Of a stretch of 28,223 bases of DNA, positions 5,715 through 28,223 are shown one piece after another. Within the stretch, counting starts at the first letter, position 1; every line of letters starts with the position of its first letter. Source of the stretch: Spirogloea muscicola (taxonomy: Eukaryota; Streptophyta; Zygnematophyceae; Spirogloeales; Spirogloeaceae); contig WELB01000258.1 in the NCBI GenBank assembly GCA_009602725.1, positions 81,591-109,813 of the forward strand, in the 5' to 3' direction. A program made the translations under genes and the position numbers. The notes under the pieces are model-generated. The model saw only the letters and a program-made list of their open reading frames with translations, searched no databases and was not told the origin of the DNA.

Positions 5715-5940
5715 TCCTTGGGCCCCCGGTGGGCAGACCCGCCGGGACCCAGTGTGCCTATGTGATTCTGCATTCTTTCTATGTAGGCAAAAGGGGGTCG
5801 AGTGAGCTCAAGCTTGCTCACTCTAACAGGAGCCACCGTCCTCCTTTTGCCCACCGCTCCTCCTTGCTTGCCAGCGCCCACGCCACCTGCCTTGAGCTGC
5901 TGCCGGCCTGCTTCCTGCCGGACCCTGCCGCCATCACCGC

Positions 5941-6068
5941 CATGGGCAAGAAGGCTGTCTTTGCCGTGGGCAAGAAGGCGAGGAAGGAGCGCGGCGCTCC
6001 ATTCAAGAGCACCGCGTCCTCATCGCCCGAGCCTCAAGCTTCTTCACGGCCTGAGCCCCAACCGAGTG
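5941..6068 (+). CDS. Possible orphan first exon, basic Lys-rich N-terminus
   Basis: A frame beginning at ATG 5941 encodes MGKKAVFAVGKKARKERGAP, then a Ser/Pro/Glu-rich stretch to about residue 43, where GATG is followed by a plausible donor GTGAGA at 6069. The frame is also open upstream to 5729. A lysine-rich start resembles nuclear or nucleolar proteins, but no family is recognised and no downstream exon is visible before the retroelement fragments begin. It may be the 5' exon of a gene disrupted by insertions, part of the element itself, or a chance frame. Confidence 0.25.
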
Positions 6069-6226
6069 ATGGTGAGACTCTGGGTCCTGGGCATTCAGTT
6101 AGTCCTAATACGGCACTAACGAATAGCCCAGCTCAACACTGGGCGCGCACCCACCTTCTCGTTCGTTTCCTCCCTCCCTCAGGTCACCTCACCAGAATCC
6201 AACCCTGCCGACTCCTCACCACTGCT

Positions 6227-6284
6227 TTGTCCATTCTTTTGGGCTGGCCTTTCCCAGCCACCAGTCAATCTGGCCGCGCTTCCT
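6227..6284 (+). repeat. Stem-loop module, subfamily A
   Basis: TTTGTCCATTCTTTTGGGCTGG is followed by CCTTTC and CCAGCC, then a second small stem CCAG-TCAAT-CTGG and CCGCGCTTCC. Similar subfamily A copies are at 6448-6505(+), 7543-7600(+) and, inverted, about 9755-9835(-). A variant CCCAGCTCAACACTGGG hairpin at 6127-6143 may be a relic of the second stem. Confidence 0.75.
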
Positions 6285-6351
6285 TCACCCCAGACCCCGA
6301 GTCTGAAAGTTTCCCCTGTGGGCAGCGCTGCCCCCTTCGTTCTTTCCGCCA

Positions 6352-6393
6352 GCTAGCTACTCAGGCTTGCATCTCCTGACTAGAGGTTACTGA
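6352..6393 (+). pseudogene. Retroelement C-terminus fragment ending SYSGLHLLTRGY
   Basis: The frame GCTAGCTACTCAGGC... reads ASYSGLHLLTRGY then TGA at 6391-6393, matching the ends at 7853 and 9106. Only the last dozen or so codons align convincingly; upstream sequence is Pro/Ser-rich and divergent. Confidence 0.55.
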
Positions 6394-6406
6394 GCGTTCC
6401 CTGGCT

Positions 6407-6504
6407 GATGTCTTAGTCCTAGTCGTTCGCACTCAGCCTCCCTCAGACCTTGTCCATTTCTTTGGGCTGGCCTTTCCCAGCCACAGTCAATCTGGCCGCG
6501 CTTC
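6407..6504 (+). repeat. ~98-bp direct repeat, copy 1 (copy 2 at 7501-7600)
   Basis: GATGTCTTAGTCCTAGTCG, TTCGCACTCA, CCTCAGACCTTGTCC, the GGGCTGGCCTTTCCCAGCC hairpin and CAGTCAATCTGGCCGCGC occur in this order both here and at 7501-7600 with few differences. This is a subfamily A 3' UTR present twice in the same orientation. Confidence 0.85.
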
Positions 6505-6697
6505 TTCTTCGGAAACCTGCTTATTAACCTCAACGGCCATCACTCTTACTAGAAAGAGCTCAGTCAACGTAAGGCAATGGCTTCGAGAGGCCCCAAACGA
6601 ATGTACAAGGAAAGTACTGTAGGTAGGCTCTTACGCTTGCAAGCTCTTCCGAAGGCTGGCTTTTTCAGCCCCTATCCTCAAAGGGCTAAACCCTAAA

Positions 6698-6977
6698 GCC
6701 CGCCGCTTCCATGGGGAGCCGGTGGACTTCCCCGCCGCCGGGTCGTTGGCCCAGGTGTATCGCATGCGCCTGGCCGTCTCGCTGCAGAGGTCCATGGCCC
6801 GTGCGCTGCACCTGCGTGCTGGCCGAGCCCTTGCTGCTGCCTCTGGCTCTGGCCAGGGGACATACTTCCAGGAGCATAGCCTCTCCGACCTGCGCCTGCT
6901 TAGCAGGGGTTACTGAGTGGTTAGTAGCTGCTTTGTTTTTTCTTGTGTGCTTGTCATTTCTGCTGCTTCGCCTTAGG
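6698..6977 (+). pseudogene. Retroelement 3' fragment: C-terminal coding end plus start of 3' UTR
   Basis: In frame from 6698 the sequence reads ARRFHGEPVDFPAAG, then AQVYRMRLAVSLQRSMARAL, HLRAGRA and SDLRLLSRGY with TGA at 6914-6916. The copy begins abruptly just after a stem-loop module (about 6653-6686), so it is 5'-truncated. The frame is intact to the stop, unlike the 8323-8812 copy. Its last 210 bp are repeated perfectly in inverted orientation at 7075-7284. Confidence 0.75.
6768..6977 (+). repeat. Perfect 210-bp inverted repeat, left arm
   Basis: Bases 6768-6977 are the exact reverse complement of 7075-7284 as far as can be read by eye. The 97-bp spacer is itself nearly the reverse complement of 7285-7389. 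The arm ends in CCTTAGG. Confidence 0.9.
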
Positions 6978-7074
6978 AGAAGAAGGGCTCGCCGATTGAG
7001 AATATGGGCTGGAACAGCCAGCCCAAAAAGAATGAACAGAGTACAAGACGAGGGGGGGGGAAGCCAGGCGAAGC

Positions 7075-7284
7075 CCTAAGGCGAAGCAGCAGAAATGACA
7101 AGCACACAAGAAAAAACAAAGCAGCTACTAACCACTCAGTAACCCCTGCTAAGCAGGCGCAGGTCGGAGAGGCTATGCTCCTGGAAGTATGTCCCCTGGC
7201 CAGAGCCAGAGGCAGCAGCAAGGGCTCGGCCAGCACGCAGGTGCAGCGCACGGGCCATGGACCTCTGCAGCGAGACGGCCAGGC
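7075..7284 (-). repeat. Perfect 210-bp inverted repeat, right arm
   Basis: Right arm of the inverted repeat above. Read on the minus strand it gives the same retroelement coding end and UTR start, including the SDLRLLSRGY-stop end. It begins with CCTAAGG, the complement of the left arm's CCTTAGG. Confidence 0.9.
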
Positions 7285-7389
7285 CTTAGGGCTTCGCCTG
7301 GCTTCCCCCCCCCTCTTCTTGTACTCTGTTCATTCTTTTTTGGGCTGGCTGTTCCAGCCCATATTCTCAATGGGCGAGCCCTTCTTCTC
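7284..7389 (+). repeat. Retroelement 3' UTR tail with stem-loop, subfamily B
   Basis: This holds CTTCGCCTGGCTTCC, a nine-C run, ACTCTGTTCATTCTTTTTTG, GGGCTGG-CTGTT-CCAGCCC, ATATTCTCAATGGGCGAGCC. Its near-exact reverse complement lies at 6979-7081, with about two mismatches. Together with 6698-6977 it would complete one element end. Confidence 0.8.
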
Positions 7390-7460
7390 TTCTTTCTTTC
7401 CGAAGGCGGGTGAGGGGTGTGAAAGAAAGCGCGGCCGGTGTGAAAGGCCAGCCCGAAAGA

Positions 7461-7490
7461 GTGGAGAAGGAGATGCTTTCCCTTCTCCAC
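7461..7490 (+). repeat. Perfect hairpin, 10-bp arms
   Basis: GTGGAGAAGG at 7461-7470 pairs perfectly with CCTTCTCCAC at 7481-7490 around a 10-base loop. It lies between an inverted module (about 7420-7462) and the second 98-bp direct repeat. Function unknown. Confidence 0.7.
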
Positions 7491-7500
7491 TGGCTTCTGT

Positions 7501-7600
7501 GATGTCTTAGTCCTAGTCGTTCGCACTCAAGCTCCCTCAGACCTTGTCCTTTTTTTTGGGCTGGCCTTTCCCAGCCACCAGTCAATCTGGCCGCGCCTCC
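7501..7600 (+). repeat. ~98-bp direct repeat, copy 2
   Basis: Second copy of the subfamily A unit at 6407-6504, with a longer T run (TTTTTTTT) before the GGGCTGG stem. Confidence 0.85.
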
Positions 7601-7739
7601 TGCCAGCCCCTCTCTTCTATGGGCGAGCTTTTCCTTTTCTTAGCGCTTCCCCTGGCCCCCTTCTCGTCATTTGTTGATTGCTTTGGGCTGGCTTTTCCAG
7701 CCATTCTTTTTTGGCTGGCTTCTGCTCTCTTTGGCTCAT

Positions 7740-7853
7740 GCGGTCCACGCGCGGGCTGGCCGTGCTATGGCAGCTGCTTCCGGGTCTCGGCAAAGTGCCG
7801 CTTCTCCTGCTCCGAGTTACTCTGATCTGCTGTTGCTCACACGTGGATACTGA
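7740..7853 (+). pseudogene. 5'-truncated retroelement C-terminus
   Basis: The frame reads VHARAGRAMAAASGSRQSAA, then SPAPSYSDLLLLTRGY with TGA at 7851-7853. It starts where the 6698 copy reads LHLRAGRA, directly after a stem-loop module, so truncation occurred at a different point from the other copies. Confidence 0.65.
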
Positions 7854-7972
7854 GCAGCCATCTGCATCTCCCTCTGCACCATCTTGCACTTTGTAGTGTA
7901 GTCCTTTTTCAGCAATTTGTAGTGTAGTCCTTTTTCTTCTTTTTCAGCACCTCTTTCTTTGGCTTTGAACAT

Positions 7973-8087
7973 TGTCCATTCTTTTTGGGTTGGCTTTGCC
8001 AGCCCCTCTTCTCAATGGGCGAGCACCTTCTATGGGCGAGCTTTTTCTTCTTTTTCCAGCCCCTATTCTCAGTGGGCGAGCAATTTC
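7973..8087 (+). repeat. Two adjacent subfamily B stem-loop modules
   Basis: TTGTCCATTCTTTTTGGG, TTGGCTTTGCCAGCCCC and TCAATGGGCGAGC are followed by a second GGGCGAGC, then CCAGCCCCTATTCTCAGTGG and GGGCGAGC near 8066-8080. The second unit lacks its left stem strand. Confidence 0.7.
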
Positions 8088-8091
8088 TTTT

Positions 8092-8294
8092 CTTAGCGCT
8101 TTCCCGGGCCCCCTTCTTTCCTTCTCGTACTCTGTTCATTCTTTTTTTGGGCTGGCTTTTCCAGCCCCTATCCTCAATGGGCGAGCACTTTCTTTCAAGG
8201 AAACAAGTGCTCGCCCATTGAGAATAGGGGCTGGAAAAACCAGCCCGAAAAAGAATGAACAGAATACGAGAAGGAGGCCAGGGGAAGCGCTAAG
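8092..8294. repeat. Imperfect ~95-bp palindrome of two tail-to-tail 3' UTRs
   Basis: The left arm 8092-8190 (CTTAGCGCT... to ...GGGCGAGCACTT) and right arm 8205-8294 are inverted copies with a few mismatches, separated by a 14-bp spacer (8191-8204). Each arm contains its own GGGCTGG/CCAGCCC stem-loop. The plus-strand UTR and the UTR of the minus-strand coding fragment 8323-8812 meet here end to end. Confidence 0.85.
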
Positions 8295-8322
8295 AAACAG
8301 AAACAAAGCAGCTACGAATCAC

Positions 8323-8812
8323 TCAGTAACCCTCTGCTGAGCAGCCGCAGGTCGGAGATGCTAGGCTCGTTGAAGTGGGTCCCCTGGCCAGAGCCAGAGG
8401 CAGCAGCGAGGCTCTGCCGGCACGAAGGTGCAACGCCCGGGCCATAGACCTCTGCAGCGAGACGGCCAGGCGCATTCGATACACTTGCGCCAGCGACCCG
8501 GCTGCAGGAAAGTCGACCGGCTCCCTATGGAAGCGACGGGCGATGGTGTGGCGGGCGAGCTGGGTGAGCAGCTCGAGCCACCGAGCGCCCAGCGCCCCAT
8601 GGGTATCAATGGCCAACAGGAAGAACTCGTCTTCCCGCGGATGGTCTGCGTACTTCAGCTCTTTAGCCCGAGCAGCGCAGGCGACCACATACCCAGCCTT
8701 GGTGGCACATTGAACTGGGTGTGAGCGGTCGTAGGCATCAGTGGTCATCACGTCCAGGAGAAGACGTGGCCCGCCGGCCTGTGGGGTGGCCACCAGGTCT
8801 ACACGCCGGCCT
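8323..8812 (-). pseudogene. Longest retroelement fragment: post-RT C-terminal region
   Basis: The minus-strand frame from 8812 reads GRRVDLVATPQAGG, PRLLLDVMTTDAYDR, AKELKYADHP, FLLAIDTHGALG, TQLARHTIARRFHREPVDF and YRMRLAVSLQRSMARALHL. The arrangement (LDV..., K-YA, a hydrophobic stretch with D/E-T-x-G, then RLxVxLQRxxAR) resembles the segment after reverse transcriptase in many eukaryotic retroelements, possibly a restriction-endonuclease-like fold; that is family memory, not a search. A one-base deletion near 8405 relative to the 6698 copy shifts the frame, and an extra base at the end destroys the SRGY-stop, so it is not functional. It is truncated at 8812, where a CTTAA junction introduces a stop. 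Confidence 0.6.
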
Positions 8813-8924
8813 TAAGAGCAACAAGCACACAAAGAAACAAAGCAGCTACGAATCACTCAGTAACCCCTGCTAAGCCTGCTGCTTTGTTTCTGCTTTCGTT
8901 TCTTTGTGTGCTTGTTGTTCTTAA
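8812..8924. repeat. Inverted 27-bp arms around a UTR back-to-back junction
   Basis: TTAAGAGCAACAAGCACACA at 8812 onward pairs with a segment ending at 8924 (GTGTGCTTGTTGTTCTTAA), one mismatch in 27. Between them lie a minus-oriented coding end (GGGGTTACTGAGTG complement near 8870) and the start of a plus-oriented UTR. The minus element ends at CTTAA and continues directly into the 8323-8812 fragment. Confidence 0.75.
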
Positions 8925-9045
8925 GGCTTCCCCTGGCCCCCTTCTCGTACTCTGTTCATTCTTTTTTGGGCTGGCTTTTCCAGCCCCTAGCCTCAATGGG
9001 CGAGCACTTTCATCTTTCCAGCCCCTATCCTCAATGGTCTCGTCT
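8925..9045 (+). repeat. Retroelement 3' UTR with stem-loop and partial second module
   Basis: GGCTTCCCCTGGCCCCCTTC, TCGTACTCTGTTCATTC, GGGCTGG-CTTTT-CCAGCCC and CCTCAATGGGCGAGCAC form a subfamily B tail, followed by a half module CCAGCCCCTATCCTCAATGG near 9018-9037. Confidence 0.75.
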
Positions 9046-9106
9046 GCCTGCATCTTTTCCAGCTTCGAGCTACTCTGACCTGATGTTGCTAACCCGCGGG
9101 TATTGA
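9046..9106 (+). pseudogene. Retroelement C-terminus fragment ending YSDLMLLTRGY
   Basis: The frame reads PASFPASSYSDLMLLTRGY with TGA at 9104-9106, matching the 6393 and 7853 ends. It is joined without a gap to the preceding UTR module. Confidence 0.6.
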
Positions 9107-9265
9107 GCTTCCTGTGGTTTCGTTATGTCTAGTTGTCTAGATGCCTAGCTGTGTGTTTCCCTTCTTTCCTCTCCTCTCCTTCTTTCCGGCACCTGTTGTA
9201 GCTCTTTGGATTTTGTCCATTCTTTTTTGGCTGGCTTCTGCCAGCCCCTCTTCTATGGGCGAGCT

Positions 9266-9320
9266 CATTTCTTCCTGCTAAGCAGGCGCAGGTTAGAGAA
9301 GCTAGGCTCCTGGAAGTAGA
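9266..9320 (-). pseudogene. Retroelement coding-end scrap (minus strand)
   Basis: On the minus strand, TACTTCCAGGAGCCTAGC and following bases read YFQEPSFSNLRLLSRKK-stop, an altered form of the SDLRLLSRGY end. The last two codons are replaced at the junction with the 9212-9262 module. It follows directly after the UTR unit 9323-9395, out of normal order. Confidence 0.5.
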
Positions 9321-9322
9321 AG

Positions 9323-9470
9323 AAAGAAAGTGTTCGCCCATTGAGATAGGGGCTGGAAAAGCCAGCCCAAAAAAGCATAAACAGAGTACGAGAAGTAAAG
9401 AAAGTGCTCGCCCATTAAGAATAGGGGCTGGAAAAGCCAGCCCAAAAATGAATAAACAGAGTACGAGAAG
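9323..9470 (-). repeat. Tandem duplication of the 3' UTR stem-loop unit, period 74 bp
   Basis: Units 9323-9395 and 9397-9470 both carry AAAGAAAGTG, TCGCCCATT, ATAGGGGCTGG-AAAAG-CCAGCCC, AATAAACAGAGTACGAGAAG or close variants. They differ at about six positions. Only the second is followed by the normal GGGGCCAGGGGAAGCGCTAAG. Confidence 0.85.
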
Positions 9471-9519
9471 GGGGCCAGGGGAAGCGCTAAGAAAAACAAG
9501 CACACAGAGAAACAAAGCA

Positions 9520-9730
9520 GCTACGAATCACTCAGTAACCTCTGCTGAGCAGCCGCAGGTCGGAGATGCGAAGTGGGTCCCCTGACCAGAGCCAGAGGCA
9601 GCAGCGAAGGCTCTGGCGCGCACTTCTCTCTGCCAGCACGCAGGTGCAGCGCGCGGGCTATGGACCGCTGCAGCGAGACGGTCAGGCCCATACGGTACAC
9701 TTGCGCCATTCCTACTCTTGGGCTCTTGAC
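9520..9730 (-). pseudogene. Retroelement C-terminal fragment (minus strand)
   Basis: The minus strand encodes MAQVYRMGLTVSLQRSIARA, LHLRAGR, then a short insertion (EKCAPEPS) compared with the 6698 copy, and a frame-shifted coding end near 9530. It is truncated at about 9706 and preceded on the minus strand by a subfamily A stem-loop module (about 9755-9835). Confidence 0.6.
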
Positions 9731-9840
9731 CTTCTGCACCCACTTGCGTAACGAGCGTTGCCCCGACGGCAGCGAGGAGACAAGCGCGGCCAGATGGACT
9801 GGTGACTGGGAGAGGCCAGCCCAAAGAACCCAAAGCAAAG

Positions 9841-10924
9841 GAGTGGAAAGAGCAGGCAGGTGTGAGGTGTATCATTCATCGTCTTGATTTGATTGCTGCA
9901 GGCATTCTGGCCCCTATGCACTGCATGCAACTTTTTGCTTCCCTGCATTGTTTACCGGCCGATGCTTCAGCCCATTCTTTCCGGGCTTGCCTCTGATATC
10001 CATTGCCCACTCTCGCTGCCTTCCAGAAGAGCTGCTATTTCACAGCCATTGCCCCCCTTTTAGAGGACGTTCTCCCTCTCTTCTCTGTATAGCCCACTCC
10101 TGGCACTTCCTTGCCTTTTGCAAGAACAGTGAATGGCCCGGCCACCCTGTCTTCACATGCGCATTCCGCGCATTCCCTCTTGTGCCCTGCATGCGCTCGC
10201 TCGACTATCGTGAGTCGGGCCCCATCCAATATCCCCCTGTTCGGACCTTGTCCATCCTTTTTGGGGCTGGCCTTTCACTGCTAATTGCCCCTTCAAAGGC
10301 TCTCTCTTACCCGCACACTCCTGGTAATGGCAGCTCGGAAGCGACTGCCCCCTTCCCTTAAGACCTTGTTCGTTCATTTGTGTGCTGGCTTCTCTCAGCC
10401 TTCGCCCTCTTTGAACGGGCTTACTTCTGCATTCTTTTTGGGCTGGCCTTTCCCAGCCAAAGCCTAACAATTGGAAGAGCTGTTGCTCTTCCAAGACTGG
10501 GGACAGAGCGGCGAGACTGTGAGAGCGGGCAATGGCTTGTCCGGAGACGTAGGCTCATCGACAGGGTGCGAAGGCTGTGAAAAGTACAAGCAAGAACAAC
10601 ATTGACAAGGTCCGAGGGGCCGGAATGCATTCAACACAAATCTATTAAGTACTATACAAGATAGTCACTTAGTACTCCCTAGTAAGCACACGCCAATTGG
10701 AAGGGACAGCTCCATCCTCCGAAGGGCAAGAGCTTGAAAAGCCAGCCAGAAATGATTAGACAAACGTCCATAGGGGCCAGAAAGCGCGAAAAGGCAATGA
10801 GGATGGGGGCCCACGCAATACTTGGTCATAGTGCTATCTAGGCTGATAAATTGGTCAAACCAAGCAGGACAATGAAAGCCCAGAGTATCAGCAAAAGTTG
10901 TGCCTTGCTTGGTTGACATTCATT
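9841..10924. other. Gene-free interval with scattered stem-loop modules
   Basis: No coding frame with family signatures was found. Partial modules lie near 10249-10275(+, GGGGCTGGCCTTTCA), 10375-10400(+, GTGCTGGCTTCTCTCAGCC), 10430-10465(+, GGGCTGGCCTTTCCCAGCC) and 10735-10775(-). A perfect hairpin lies at 10471-10494. The last ~150 bp are presumably the 3' UTR of the amino-acid transporter. Confidence 0.5.
10471..10494 (+). repeat. Perfect hairpin TTGGAAGAGC / GCTCTTCCAA
   Basis: Ten-base arms at 10471-10480 and 10485-10494 pair perfectly around a TGTT loop. It directly follows a GGGCTGGCCTTTCCCAGCC module, so two stem-loops are stacked. No T-tract terminator follows. Confidence 0.7.
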
Positions 10925-16483: not shown

Positions 16484-17453
16484 TCAGCCCTCAATGAGGA
16501 GCTTGGCTAGCAGCGCATCCGGGACGCGCACCTCCTTGCAGCACTGCAAAGCCTGGGCCAGCCGTGCCGCCAGCTGGTGCTTGCACTACACGCCCCAACA
16601 CTCACGCCAGCAGCATCAACACTTTGCTGGTGCCACTCGACAATGCTGACGGCATGCAGCCCGACGCTCATGCTGTAGAACTGCTGAACTCGCTCAATAG
16701 GATATTGAGCAAGTTCGGCATTGCCGTCGATGACGATGCTCGACTAGCAGCGTGCTCACATGCAAGTGCACGCCCTTGTTGACAACGTTGTAGAAGAAGG
16801 AAGCGCAGGAGCAGTAGTGCGCCGGGAAGCACGTGTACTGGTCTGGCGCCTCCTTGCCTTCGTGGCCGCTGCCGCTGCCTCTCTTGCGAGGGTGTTGCCC
16901 CTGGACCTGCCATAACCCGCACCGGAGCAAGGCCCAGCAGCCGTCAGGGAGCCTGCCGGCTTGCCACCACGGAGAGGAAAACCTCAGATCTCATATGACA
17001 AAGAAGTTCTCATTCAGATCCAATACCAATCTAACACAATCTGTTTGGCTACGTCTATCTATATTATTATTGATATCAAAACACAACAACGCATTACCCT
17101 GGCACCGGACGGAAGCGGGGACCTGGAAGTGTGAGCGGCCGCTGCGCTCGGCGACCACCTTGCGGACGCCGCCGGAGTCGAGGATCTCCAGCGCGCCCTC
17201 CAGGTTCCTCTCGAACAGGGCGTGCAGCCTGCGGCAGCGACGGGGCTCGGCCACCGTCCACGGAGGCATGAGCGCCATAATCGCCGTCATGCCCGGCTAT
17301 GCAGGCAAGCCCGGCCACTGCCGCTGCAGACTGGCGGCGGCGCCGGCGGCGGTGGTGGTGGCGGCGGCGGCAATGGAGCAAGAGCGGCGGCGCCGTGGCT
17401 CACATCAGCAGGTGCTCCTCGGAAACTGCGGCAGTGCCGAAGGGCGGCGGGGG
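16484..17453 (-). CDS. ZSWIM7: SWIM zinc-finger protein ZSWIM7/SWS1-like, 5' partial
   Basis: In yeast and animals SWS1/ZSWIM7 works with Rad51 paralogues in the Shu complex to promote Rad51 filaments. Exons with matching phases, minus strand: about 17453-17404, 17228-17123, 16906-16760 and 16585-16484 (TGA at 16484-16486), all GT-AG. The protein reads VSEEHLLM (codon split over intron 1), LHALFERNLEGALEILDSGG, VRKVVAERSGRSHFQ, VQGQHPRKRG..., DQYTCFPAHYCSCASFFYN, VVNKGVHLHCKHQLAARL and a tail ending LLIEG. The SWIM ligands CxC...CxH appear as CSC and CKH, the latter formed across the 16586-16759 intron. About 135 residues are visible against ~140 in human, so only a few N-terminal residues are missing, in 17454-17576 or the gap. 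An insert (PRKRGSGSGHEG) lengthens the loop before the finger. No close alternative family fits this arrangement. Confidence 0.85.
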
Positions 17454-17576: not shown

Positions 17577-18143
17577 NNNNNNNNNNNNNNNNNNNNNNNN
17601 NNNNNNNNNNNNNNNNNNNNNNNNNNNNNNNNNNNNNNNNNNNNNNNNNNNNNNNNNNNNNNNNNNNNNNNNNNNNNNNNNNNNNNNNNNNNNNNNNNNN
17701 NNNNNNNNNNNNNNNNNNNNNNNNNNNNNNNNNNNNNNNNNNNNNNNNNNNNNNNNNNNNNNNNNNNNNNNNNNNNNNNNNNNNNNNNNNNNNNNNNNNN
17801 NNNNNNNNNNNNNNNNNNNNNNNNNNNNNNNNNNNNNNNNNNNNNNNNNNNNNNNNNNNNNNNNNNNNNNNNNNNNNNNNNNNNNNNNNNNNNNNNNNNN
17901 NNNNNNNNNNNNNNNNNNNNNNNNNNNNNNNNNNNNNNNNNNNNNNNNNNNNNNNNNNNNNNNNNNNNNNNNNNNNNNNNNNNNNNNNNNNNNNNNNNNN
18001 NNNNNNNNNNNNNNNNNNNNNNNNNNNNNNNNNNNNNNNNNNNNNNNNNNNNNNNNNNNNNNNNNNNNNNNNNNNNNNNNNNNNNNNNNNNNNNNNNNNN
18101 NNNNNNNNNNNNNNNNNNNNNNNNNNNNNNNNNNNNNNNNNNN
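17577..18143. other. Assembly gap (567 N)
   Basis: Unread bases between the divergent ZSWIM7 and FAM192A-like genes. The gap probably holds their first exons and shared promoter. Its right edge is a pure GCC repeat, which likely caused the break; the stated length may be an estimate. Confidence 0.95.

Positions 18144-18176
<33 letters not shown>
18144..18176 (+). repeat. GCC trinucleotide microsatellite at gap edge
   Basis: Eleven uninterrupted GCC units run from the gap edge. A second CCG/GCC run lies at about 18320-18352, inside the first visible intron of the FAM192A-like gene. Confidence 0.9.
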
Positions 18177-18321: not shown

Positions 18322-18352
<31 letters not shown>

Positions 18353-19556
18353 TGCCGCCATGGCGCCTCGGGCTCGCACTGCCGGCTGATGCTGCTCGAG
18401 CGCTCGCCGTGCCGCCAGTCTGTATTGAACCTGAGACCTTTGACTCACCGGGAAGGAGTCGTCCCGCAGGTGAAGGAGGGCGAGCACGCCGGCTTCTTGC
18501 ACGGCCGCGGCGGTGAACGGCGACGGACCCCGTTCACAATATGCATTGCGAGCTCGCCCATCAGGGGCCCCTCGTTAGCCGCAGATGTGCCCATGTTCGG
18601 CTTGTCGGCCAGCCATGGTCTGCGCTGCAGCAGGATGGCCAGAGCTTGACAGCTTTCCTGGGCTGCCGGTGCCCACTTGCCCCGTGCTGCAGCGCTCGAC
18701 AGCGACGACCTGCTGTACCTCAAGGAGCAGACACAGGCTGAGCAGGACGCCGAGACCATCCGGGACCGCGCCGAGAAGCGCGCATTCGCCGCCTTCAAGA
18801 TATCCTGCCAAACGTTTGCTTGCGGCTCTTCCAGGCTCCCATAGAATGCACGTTGCTTCTGAGTGCTATGGCCAGCGCAGGCTCGGGCAATGGTCGAGAC
18901 GTTCATATCGTGGTTGCTCTCTTGACCCGACGAGCATGCACGTGGCAGCCAATAAGGCGGACGCAGCTGGCCCTGCTGCCATGCGTGTGGATACCAAGCC
19001 GCGCAGCGGCATCAGGTGCATCTACAGCTGTCCTTATGAAAAGAGCTGCATTGCATTTTTCTTCTGACACGAGTTCTGATATTCGGTAGCCACGTTCTCC
19101 TTGTGAGGCTGCAGGCAGCACGATCTGCTGAAGAATATTGTGGAGATCAAGCCCAAGCGGCAGCGCTCTGACGCCTCCGAGAGGAGCAGTGGAACGCCGA
19201 GTCCCAGAGTGCAGGGGCGGACCACCACGCCCAGCTCTGCCGACCGCAGCAGCAAGTCGTGGAAGGACGATGTTCATGCCCTGCCAGAGGACAGAAAGGA
19301 CTCAGGAGCAGCAGCATCGGCTGATGCGTCTGCCTTCAATCAAGCAGGCCTTCGAGATGGCCCGAAGAATGCCACGAGTCTGCTCGGTCTCACCTATGCC
19401 AGCAGCGAGGACGAGGACGGGTCAGATGAAATGAAGCAGGGGGACATGTCTCACCTCGATGACGCTGCTCAATCCTCCAAGAACCCCAAGCAGGACCTGG
19501 CTGAGCTTTCGAAGGCCGCGCAAATGGGGGACGCAAGAGATGCTGGGGGGACTTGA
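18234..19556 (+). CDS. FAM192A: Probable FAM192A/PSME3IP1 (NIP30, Fyv6-like) nuclear protein, 5' partial
   Basis: Homologues bind the nuclear proteasome activator PA28-gamma (animals) or act in splicing (yeast Fyv6). Visible exons: about 18234-18313 (VIKGVKNPNREKQEVEDAAF, KRMMAK; acceptor CGCAG, donor GTGCGC), 18653-18813 (ALDSDDLLYLKEQTQAEQ, AETIRDRAEKRAFAAFK) and 19115-19556 (QHDLLKNIVEIKPKRQR, Ser-rich linker, SLLGLTYASSEDEDGSDE, TGA at 19554). The family pattern is a charged helix, a L-D-x-D/E-[DE]-x-x-[FY]-L motif, a second charged coiled coil, a basic V-x-[IV]-K-x-[KR] patch and an acidic C-terminal G-L-x-x-Y-x-S-S-[DE] motif; all are present in order. Middle-exon start 18653 is chosen because it keeps phase; the nicer-looking acceptor at 18692 would break frame. 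The N-terminus is in the gap. Assignment is from motif memory on short, charged sequence, so moderate. Confidence 0.6.
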
Positions 19557-28004: not shown

Positions 28005-28223
28005 ATGGAGGCCGCTTCCGTCGCAGCGCTCAACCCCGGAAGGCACGCCATAGCCGAACTTACAGCAGACCCATCCCAGACGCTCGCCCGCTGCAGCCCC
28101 CACTCCTCCCGCTCCGGGGCGCCATAGCCACGGCCCGAGGTCCCCGGCCCTCCCCGCGCCGCCGCCGCCGCTGCCTCCGCCGCCGTCGCCGCCGCTGCCG
28201 CCTTTTCCGCCGCCGCCGCCGCC
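28005..28223. other. GCC-rich right edge, possible start of another gene
   Basis: An ATG at 28005 opens 40 codons (MEAASVAALNPGRHAIAELT and on) to TAG at 28125-28127, followed by CCG/GCC runs to the window end. Alanine-rich GCC runs also mark the first exons of other genes here, so this may be the 5' end of a gene leaving the window, on either strand. No family is recognised. Confidence 0.3.

Follow-up and report, generated by a model that had tools for sequence, protein, structure and literature searches.

The stretch of DNA analysed here, hereafter the window, comprises 28,223 nucleotides of contig WELB01000258.1 from Spirogloea muscicola (Zygnematophyceae), and contains a cluster of short hairpin-bearing modules that are probably the 3' ends of a retrotransposon family. 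The window, which belongs to a eukaryotic nuclear genome, carries actin-coding frames (Pfam Actin, E = 2e-69; best match in the PDB, a pollen actin), fragments of an amino-acid permease and of an AAA_12 helicase, and a gap of N at 17577-18143. When the window was compared with itself, significant interspersed repeats were confined to approximately 6.2-10.8 kb, and the matches elsewhere were mostly low-complexity GC runs. The cluster, approximately 4.7 kb long and adjoining genes, consists of nested element fragments in both orientations, and was placed at 6120-10790 by self-comparison, by a search with the longest copy and by module searches.

The modules share a hairpin, GGGCTGG/CCAGCCC. The pattern GGGCTGG-N3..10-CCAGCC had 20 matches on the two strands, which represent 13 distinct sites since palindromic sites match on both strands, while shuffled sequences gave 0.02 matches on average and at most 1. 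The sequence TTCATTCTTTTTGG, allowing up to three mismatches, matched 16 times compared with 2.0 expected. A covariance model was built from 14 modules and the window was searched without filters at E ≤ 1. There were 20 matches: the 14 building modules, five further modules in the cluster (7664, 8036, 10241, 10359 and 10430), and one at 422-492 (E = 0.0057), which can be read as part of an open frame and is likely a chance match. Three of the further cluster matches (8036, 10241 and 10430, E = 0.003-0.004) score barely above that one. Fifteen matches had E < 2e-6, ten on the forward and five on the reverse strand, and the estimate of about 20 modules in both orientations made in a first-pass annotation of this DNA was fair.

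At least three subfamilies were present, designated A, B and C. Subfamily A comprises the modules at 6220, 6443, 7537 and, on the reverse strand, 9777, and ends in CAATCTGGCCGCGC or a close variant. Subfamily B comprises seven strong modules and subfamily C those at 7965 and 9206, and both end in (C)AATGGGCGAGC or close variants. In the module alignment the tails and loop variants of A and B match those given in the first-pass annotation; its division into two subfamilies holds for A and B and was incomplete in lacking C. The 12 nt past the module were 82% pyrimidine in 15 ends located by pattern, which missed at least the 6980 copy (null 52%, p = 0.0002). This tail often reads CTTTCTTTC, and none of the 15 contained AAAA. 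The exception was the diverged end at 6688, with a tail of 50% pyrimidine.

Linked coding ends and conserved terminal blocks

Seven places in the cluster encode the same protein C-terminus, SxLxLLxRG(Y/L), with stops at 6393, 6916, 7853 and 9106 on the forward strand and at 7136, 8324 and 9532 on the reverse strand. Six of the seven end in RGY-stop, and the 8324 copy, which is frame-shifted, reads RGLL. A same-strand module follows six of the seven, with the hairpin approximately 70-135 nt past the peptide; the seventh, at 6916, reaches an inverted copy before any module. The longer copies agree upstream of the C-terminal motif too.

The ratio of nonsynonymous to synonymous differences (pN/pS) was calculated over 12 codons for five of these ends, leaving out 8324 for its frame shift and 7136 because over this stretch it does not differ from 6916. 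In frame, pN/pS was 0.13-0.62 in all 10 pairs, and in the other two frames it was 0.73-2.95 where defined (18 of 20; two were without a synonymous difference), the pairs not being independent and the stretch being short. This is what protein-level selection across A, B and C would be expected to look like. The modules are accompanied by a linked coding region, the lack of which would have counted against the first-pass annotation on its own terms, in the form of these seven related ends of an open reading frame (ORF) conserved in frame.

The longest frame, at 8323-8811 on the reverse strand, begins GRRVDLV...RLLLDV and continues to ARAKELKY. By eye it resembles the D-x(12-14)-D ... K pattern of restriction-like endonucleases of long interspersed nuclear elements (LINEs). 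The putative endonuclease motif in this frame had no match in Pfam, NCBIfam or the PDB, a sequence search of the PDB with the ORF returned nothing at E ≤ 10, and the AlphaFold model (mean predicted confidence, pLDDT, 41.6) was not usable. Each of five Pfam families, none of them a reverse transcriptase (RT), had a single matching frame at E ≤ 0.1 (the best at 0.0038), and these matches were taken as noise.

Analysis of the region between the coding end and the tail showed that the terminal 58 nt were specifically conserved between subfamilies. In 12 between-subfamily pairs this block aligned at 4.6-16.1 standard deviations above shuffles (z), compared with -0.5 to 1.5 for the preceding 38-58 nt of spacer. 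The two C copies gave z values of 15.6 for the terminal block and 1.6 for the spacer, and both parts aligned in the comparisons within B (18.8 and 9.8) and within A (23.1 and 13.3). The coding end and the terminal block appear to have been kept while the spacer between them was lost, a pattern that a 3' recognition element would show, and the description of these modules as 3' ends was borne out to this extent.

Predicted RNA structure of the module

In the B and C modules the GGGCTGG/CCAGCCC hairpin is predicted to lie within an outer helix, formed by GU(U/C)CAUU with AAUGGGC plus part of GAG. The folding energy in the five such modules tested had z values of -2.7 to -4.6 relative to shuffles, and with wider flanks the hairpin-in-outer-helix fold was predicted in eight of the nine B and C copies, the one exception being the 6980 copy, whose 3' arm carries a change. 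Across these nine copies, 96.7% of the positions in 17 pairs had standard pairing, compared with 35-51% when the arms were slid. Columns of the hairpin stem were 96.8% identical, those of the hairpin loop 80% and those of the outer helix 87.6%, in agreement with the constant stem and variable loop noted in the first-pass annotation.

A second stem with a CAAT-containing loop had been drawn for both A and B. It is possible in A (CCAG-UCAAU-CUGG), where it has 3 bp in the 6452 copy and was the predicted fold in two of three tight folds and in one of four with wider flanks. It is not the predicted fold of B or C, where TTCATT/TCCATT upstream instead pairs with AATGGGC(GAG) around the first hairpin in eight of the nine copies.

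Several candidates for paired change were rejected. What looked like a compensatory change from A-U to G-C in the 10359 copy was set aside because GTTCATT also occurs there in another register, so that the 9-bp helix of this copy has no homology to that of B; eight of 28 arm swaps were as good as or better than the native helix. A seeming paired deletion in the 6637 copy was set aside on similar grounds, 11 of 28 swaps and 63 of 1000 shuffles being as good. A double change counted by RNAalifold in columns 9 and 69 was not used, the pair being broken in three copies.

Interpretation and comparison with known elements

Nineteen of the 24 matches found with the longest copy (616 positions) fell in the cluster. 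Counting the query, 11 of these 19 stretches reach position 600 or beyond of the 616, and their 5' points are scattered. Fragments abut the tails of others head to tail, for instance 7500-7603, 7601-7629, 7630-7702, 7700-7725 and 7737-8031. The cluster is most probably an accumulation of copies, mostly 5'-truncated and inserted into one another, of a LINE-type retrotransposon, that is, one without long terminal repeats, with a stringent-type 3' hairpin recognised by its own RT. Such an element would consist of an ORF ending in SxLxLLxRGY, a 3' untranslated region (UTR) of approximately 70-135 nt before the hairpin, a conserved terminal block of approximately 58 nt with the hairpin, and a CT-rich tail. 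An RT encoded upstream would bind the hairpin in the RNA ("stringent" recognition), the terminal block most likely being the 3' recognition signal; target-primed reverse transcription would start at the CT-rich end, and early stops would leave many short 3'-anchored fragments. Most LINE copies are described as 5'-truncated (PMC3747384). The recognition role is suggested by the position and conservation of the hairpin and by the experiments reported for other LINEs (PMC4176376, PMC10499050).

A number of results weigh against this reading. No RT family was detected among the 56 open frames of at least 60 codons in the window; this is as expected if every copy is truncated before the RT region. 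Because no RT was found, we infer the class of the element and leave its clade open. Eight of the 19 stretches stop short of the 3' end, and some 5' points, those of the C copies, reflect divergence rather than truncation. No target-site duplication was seen by eye at two copies, the flanks of which are other fragments. None of the 17 pairs in the nine B and C copies had both sides changed, and no covariation measure rose above that of its column shuffles; the stems hardly vary, and their covariation, which the first-pass annotation had proposed as a check, is unproven. Paired columns were 91.4% and unpaired columns 86.1% identical, a difference that was not significant (permutation p = 0.09). 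When the outer arms of two B and C copies were considered alone, 56 and 31 of 1000 shuffles paired as well, a moderate excess, and swapped arms were as good in 10 and 9 of 28 cases. The A modules folded no better than shuffles (z -0.3 to -1.4 in three tested) and are without the outer helix, 564-831 of 1000 shuffles pairing as well in four copies.

It is conceivable, if rather unlikely, that the hairpin of the same retroelement cluster serves the 3'-end formation or the stability of the transcript, or acts as a structure at the DNA level within a conserved block, and is not an RT signal. Neither conservation nor folding by itself reveals what reads the block, compensatory changes are lacking, and A differs from B/C in its second structural part. 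However, the block stands at the 3' terminus beside the tail, which is where LINE RTs are reported to bind (PMC4176376, PMC10499050).

A DNA transposon or rolling-circle (Helitron-like) element with a terminal hairpin is very improbable. A short GC hairpin near one end, as seen here, is a trait of Helitrons, in which it is closely followed by a CTRR end. In the cluster, however, homology extends approximately 14-20 nt past the hairpin to GAGC or GCGC and a CT tail, CTAG follows the hairpin in one copy only, and the 3'-anchored fragments are of many lengths. There is similarly little to recommend a locally rearranging or satellite-like repeat spread by duplication and inversion rather than transposition. 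Some neighbouring fragments are local duplicates, as in the 75-nt tandem at 9318-9470, the inverted repeat of 210 identical bp and the pair 7603-7702/8056-8166, but the cluster has both orientations and three subfamilies with coding ends conserved in frame, and the absence of a regular period excludes a simple tandem satellite, the only tandem arrays in the cluster being two short two-copy ones (7886-7936 and 9318-9470).

The retrotransposon reading retains from the first-pass annotation the 3' modules resembling those of a mobile element and the linked coding region, and departs from it in the second stem, misdrawn for B, and in the lack of compensatory change and of an RT family. The family could not be matched to a named one, and was compared with named families by description only.

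The first lead to a clade, though not a finding, is RandI/Dualen of green algae. These elements encode both an APE and a PD-(D/E)XK-like endonuclease (PMC3636483), and non-A 3' repeats are given for all eight of the RandI families listed in PMC3747384, where the partner SINEX-2_CR has a (CTTT)n end. The cluster resembles them in its pyrimidine-rich, non-poly(A) tails, of which CTTTCTTTC is similar to the (CTTT)n of the partner, and, by eye only, in the motif of its longest frame; the likeness is one of descriptions, not sequences, and the endonuclease and RT of the family here are putative. Nested copies are also reported for Zepp and Zepp-like L1 clusters in the green algae Coccomyxa and Chlamydomonas (PMC3446292, PMC8226300). 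Zepp, however, has poly(A) as its listed 3' repeat (PMC3747384), and the cluster described here is approximately 4.7 kb long and lies beside genes. The monocot L1/ZmSINE2 elements have a 3'-end hairpin with a conserved CGAG on its 3' side (PMC3747384), where B and C carry GGGCGAGC. Four letters in common are weak evidence of kinship, and the monocot stem is described as varying with compensatory changes while the stem here is near-constant and has none.

Elsewhere, the 3' stem-loop of UnaL2/ZfL2 is reported to be needed for retrotransposition and to be bound by the LINE protein (PMC4176376), and the R2 protein to recognise its 3' UTR by two stems and a junction (PMC10499050). The modules share with these a stem-loop at the element end, recognition of which is predicted here from sequence, but differ in that nothing in the window matched an Rfam family at gathering scores. 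Relatives of the ORF were found neither in viral contigs nor in GTDB genome contigs, and those of a second copy not in viral contigs, collections of viruses and prokaryotes that have little bearing on algae. Three DNA patterns from the module had no match in viral contigs. One had two in GTDB genome contigs (a Planctomycetota bin and a Clostridia bin, approximately 1.4 being expected by chance on a rough estimate), neither with the rest of the module. The 18-nt hairpin string occurred in the main text of no paper in a literature search, a result of little weight since main texts seldom print sequences.

That three related subfamilies within 4.7 kb keep a protein C-terminus and the last 58 nt while the spacer drifts suggests a 3' recognition element marked out by evolution alone. 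Green algae bear on the question, raised in PMC3747384, of whether ancestral L1 recognition was stringent or relaxed, and once a full-length copy is known the cluster would be a source of short, defined RNAs with which to test binding and priming. For the present it illustrates well a known mechanism, that of stringent-type LINE 3' ends, and not a new one. A bolder proposal, which we regard as a long shot, is that the family represents a new LINE lineage of green algae with a restriction-like endonuclease at its end. Its RT would read one constant GC hairpin in surroundings specific to the subfamily, the hairpin being enclosed by an outer helix in B/C and followed by a second small hairpin in A, and new copies would prefer the CT-rich tails of older ones, giving short head-to-tail nests.

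Order of the copies along the cluster

The forward strand begins with an A module (6220-6286; covariance model, E = 1.4e-9), followed by an A coding end, ASYSGLHLLTRGY-stop (6352-6393; C-terminal motif and pN/pS), with its module (6443-6508; covariance model, E = 2.3e-10), and by a diverged B-like module (6637-6697; covariance model, E = 1.7e-6, and longest-copy search). At 6698-6977 a B coding end (stop 6916) and UTR, identified by self-comparison, longest-copy search and C-terminal motif, are cut off by an inverted copy. On the reverse strand, 6975-7284 is a B copy with coding end (stop 7136), UTR and module (6980-7046), supported by longest-copy search, C-terminal motif and covariance model, and a forward B 3' end with its module at 7319-7386 occupies 7283-7391 (self-comparison, longest-copy search, covariance model). 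The two halves of the 210-bp inverted repeat, 6768-6977 and 7075-7284, are 100% identical, whereas other copies are mostly 76-92% alike; the order across 6751-7389, X, reverse complement of XY, then Y, suggests that an inverted copy was inserted very recently or that the arrangement is an artefact of assembly.

Still on the forward strand, an A UTR and module 94% like 6406-6504 (7500-7603; self-comparison, covariance model) are followed by a fragment starting in the 3' arm of the hairpin (7601-7629; self-comparison, tail analysis) and by a pair of B/C-like 3' fragments that are both interrupted within the hairpin (7630-7726; self-comparison, longest-copy search, covariance model). A C copy with coding end (stop 7853), UTR and module (7965-8031) spans 7737-8031 (C-terminal motif, pN/pS, covariance model), and 8036-8193 holds a weak partial module (8036-8088) and a B 3' end with its module at 8125-8193 (longest-copy search, covariance model). 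A two-fragment unit, in which a module tail adjoins a B UTR with the junction at an identical point, is present at both 7603-7702 and 8056-8166 (76% alike); either a dimer was copied as a single piece or the unit was duplicated.

The longest B copy lies on the reverse strand at 8197-8812, and contains the open frame 8323-8811, with a frame shift near its end, a UTR and the module 8202-8269 (longest-copy search, C-terminal motif, covariance model). Next to it are a reverse-strand B coding end and UTR fragment without a module (8813-8875; self-comparison, longest-copy search) and a forward B UTR with module 8945-9012 (8878-9012; self-comparison, covariance model). Two imperfect long palindromes, at 8084-8303 and 8809-8927, lie where copies meet by their 3' ends or by their UTRs. 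Below gathering scores Rfam gave 17 matches, the strongest being microRNA families on the inverted repeat at 8127-8267, within the first palindrome; these were taken as matches to a palindrome.

The second C copy (9036-9271, forward; self-comparison, C-terminal motif, pN/pS, covariance model) has its coding end (stop 9106), UTR and a module at 9206-9271. The reverse strand then carries a B coding fragment (9274-9318; self-comparison, longest-copy search), a B 3' end with its module at 9325-9391 (9318-9395; self-comparison, covariance model), a B copy with coding end (stop 9532), UTR and module 9399-9466 (9393-9708; longest-copy search, C-terminal motif, covariance model), and an A module (9777-9833; covariance model, E = 1.8e-6). 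Three weak, diverged forward modules at 10241, 10359 and 10430 (10241-10487; covariance model, E = 0.003, 0.0001 and 0.004) lie beyond it.

An open stretch at 5920-6075 on the forward strand starts with MGKKAVFAVGKKARKERG and is followed by a GT-like donor; should this stretch be a first exon, the cluster could occupy or adjoin its intron. Elsewhere in the window, runs of GGC/GCC triplets recur at 17333-17371, 18144-18176, 18322-18359 and 28157-28223, and one of them adjoins the N gap, which may represent a collapsed GC repeat.

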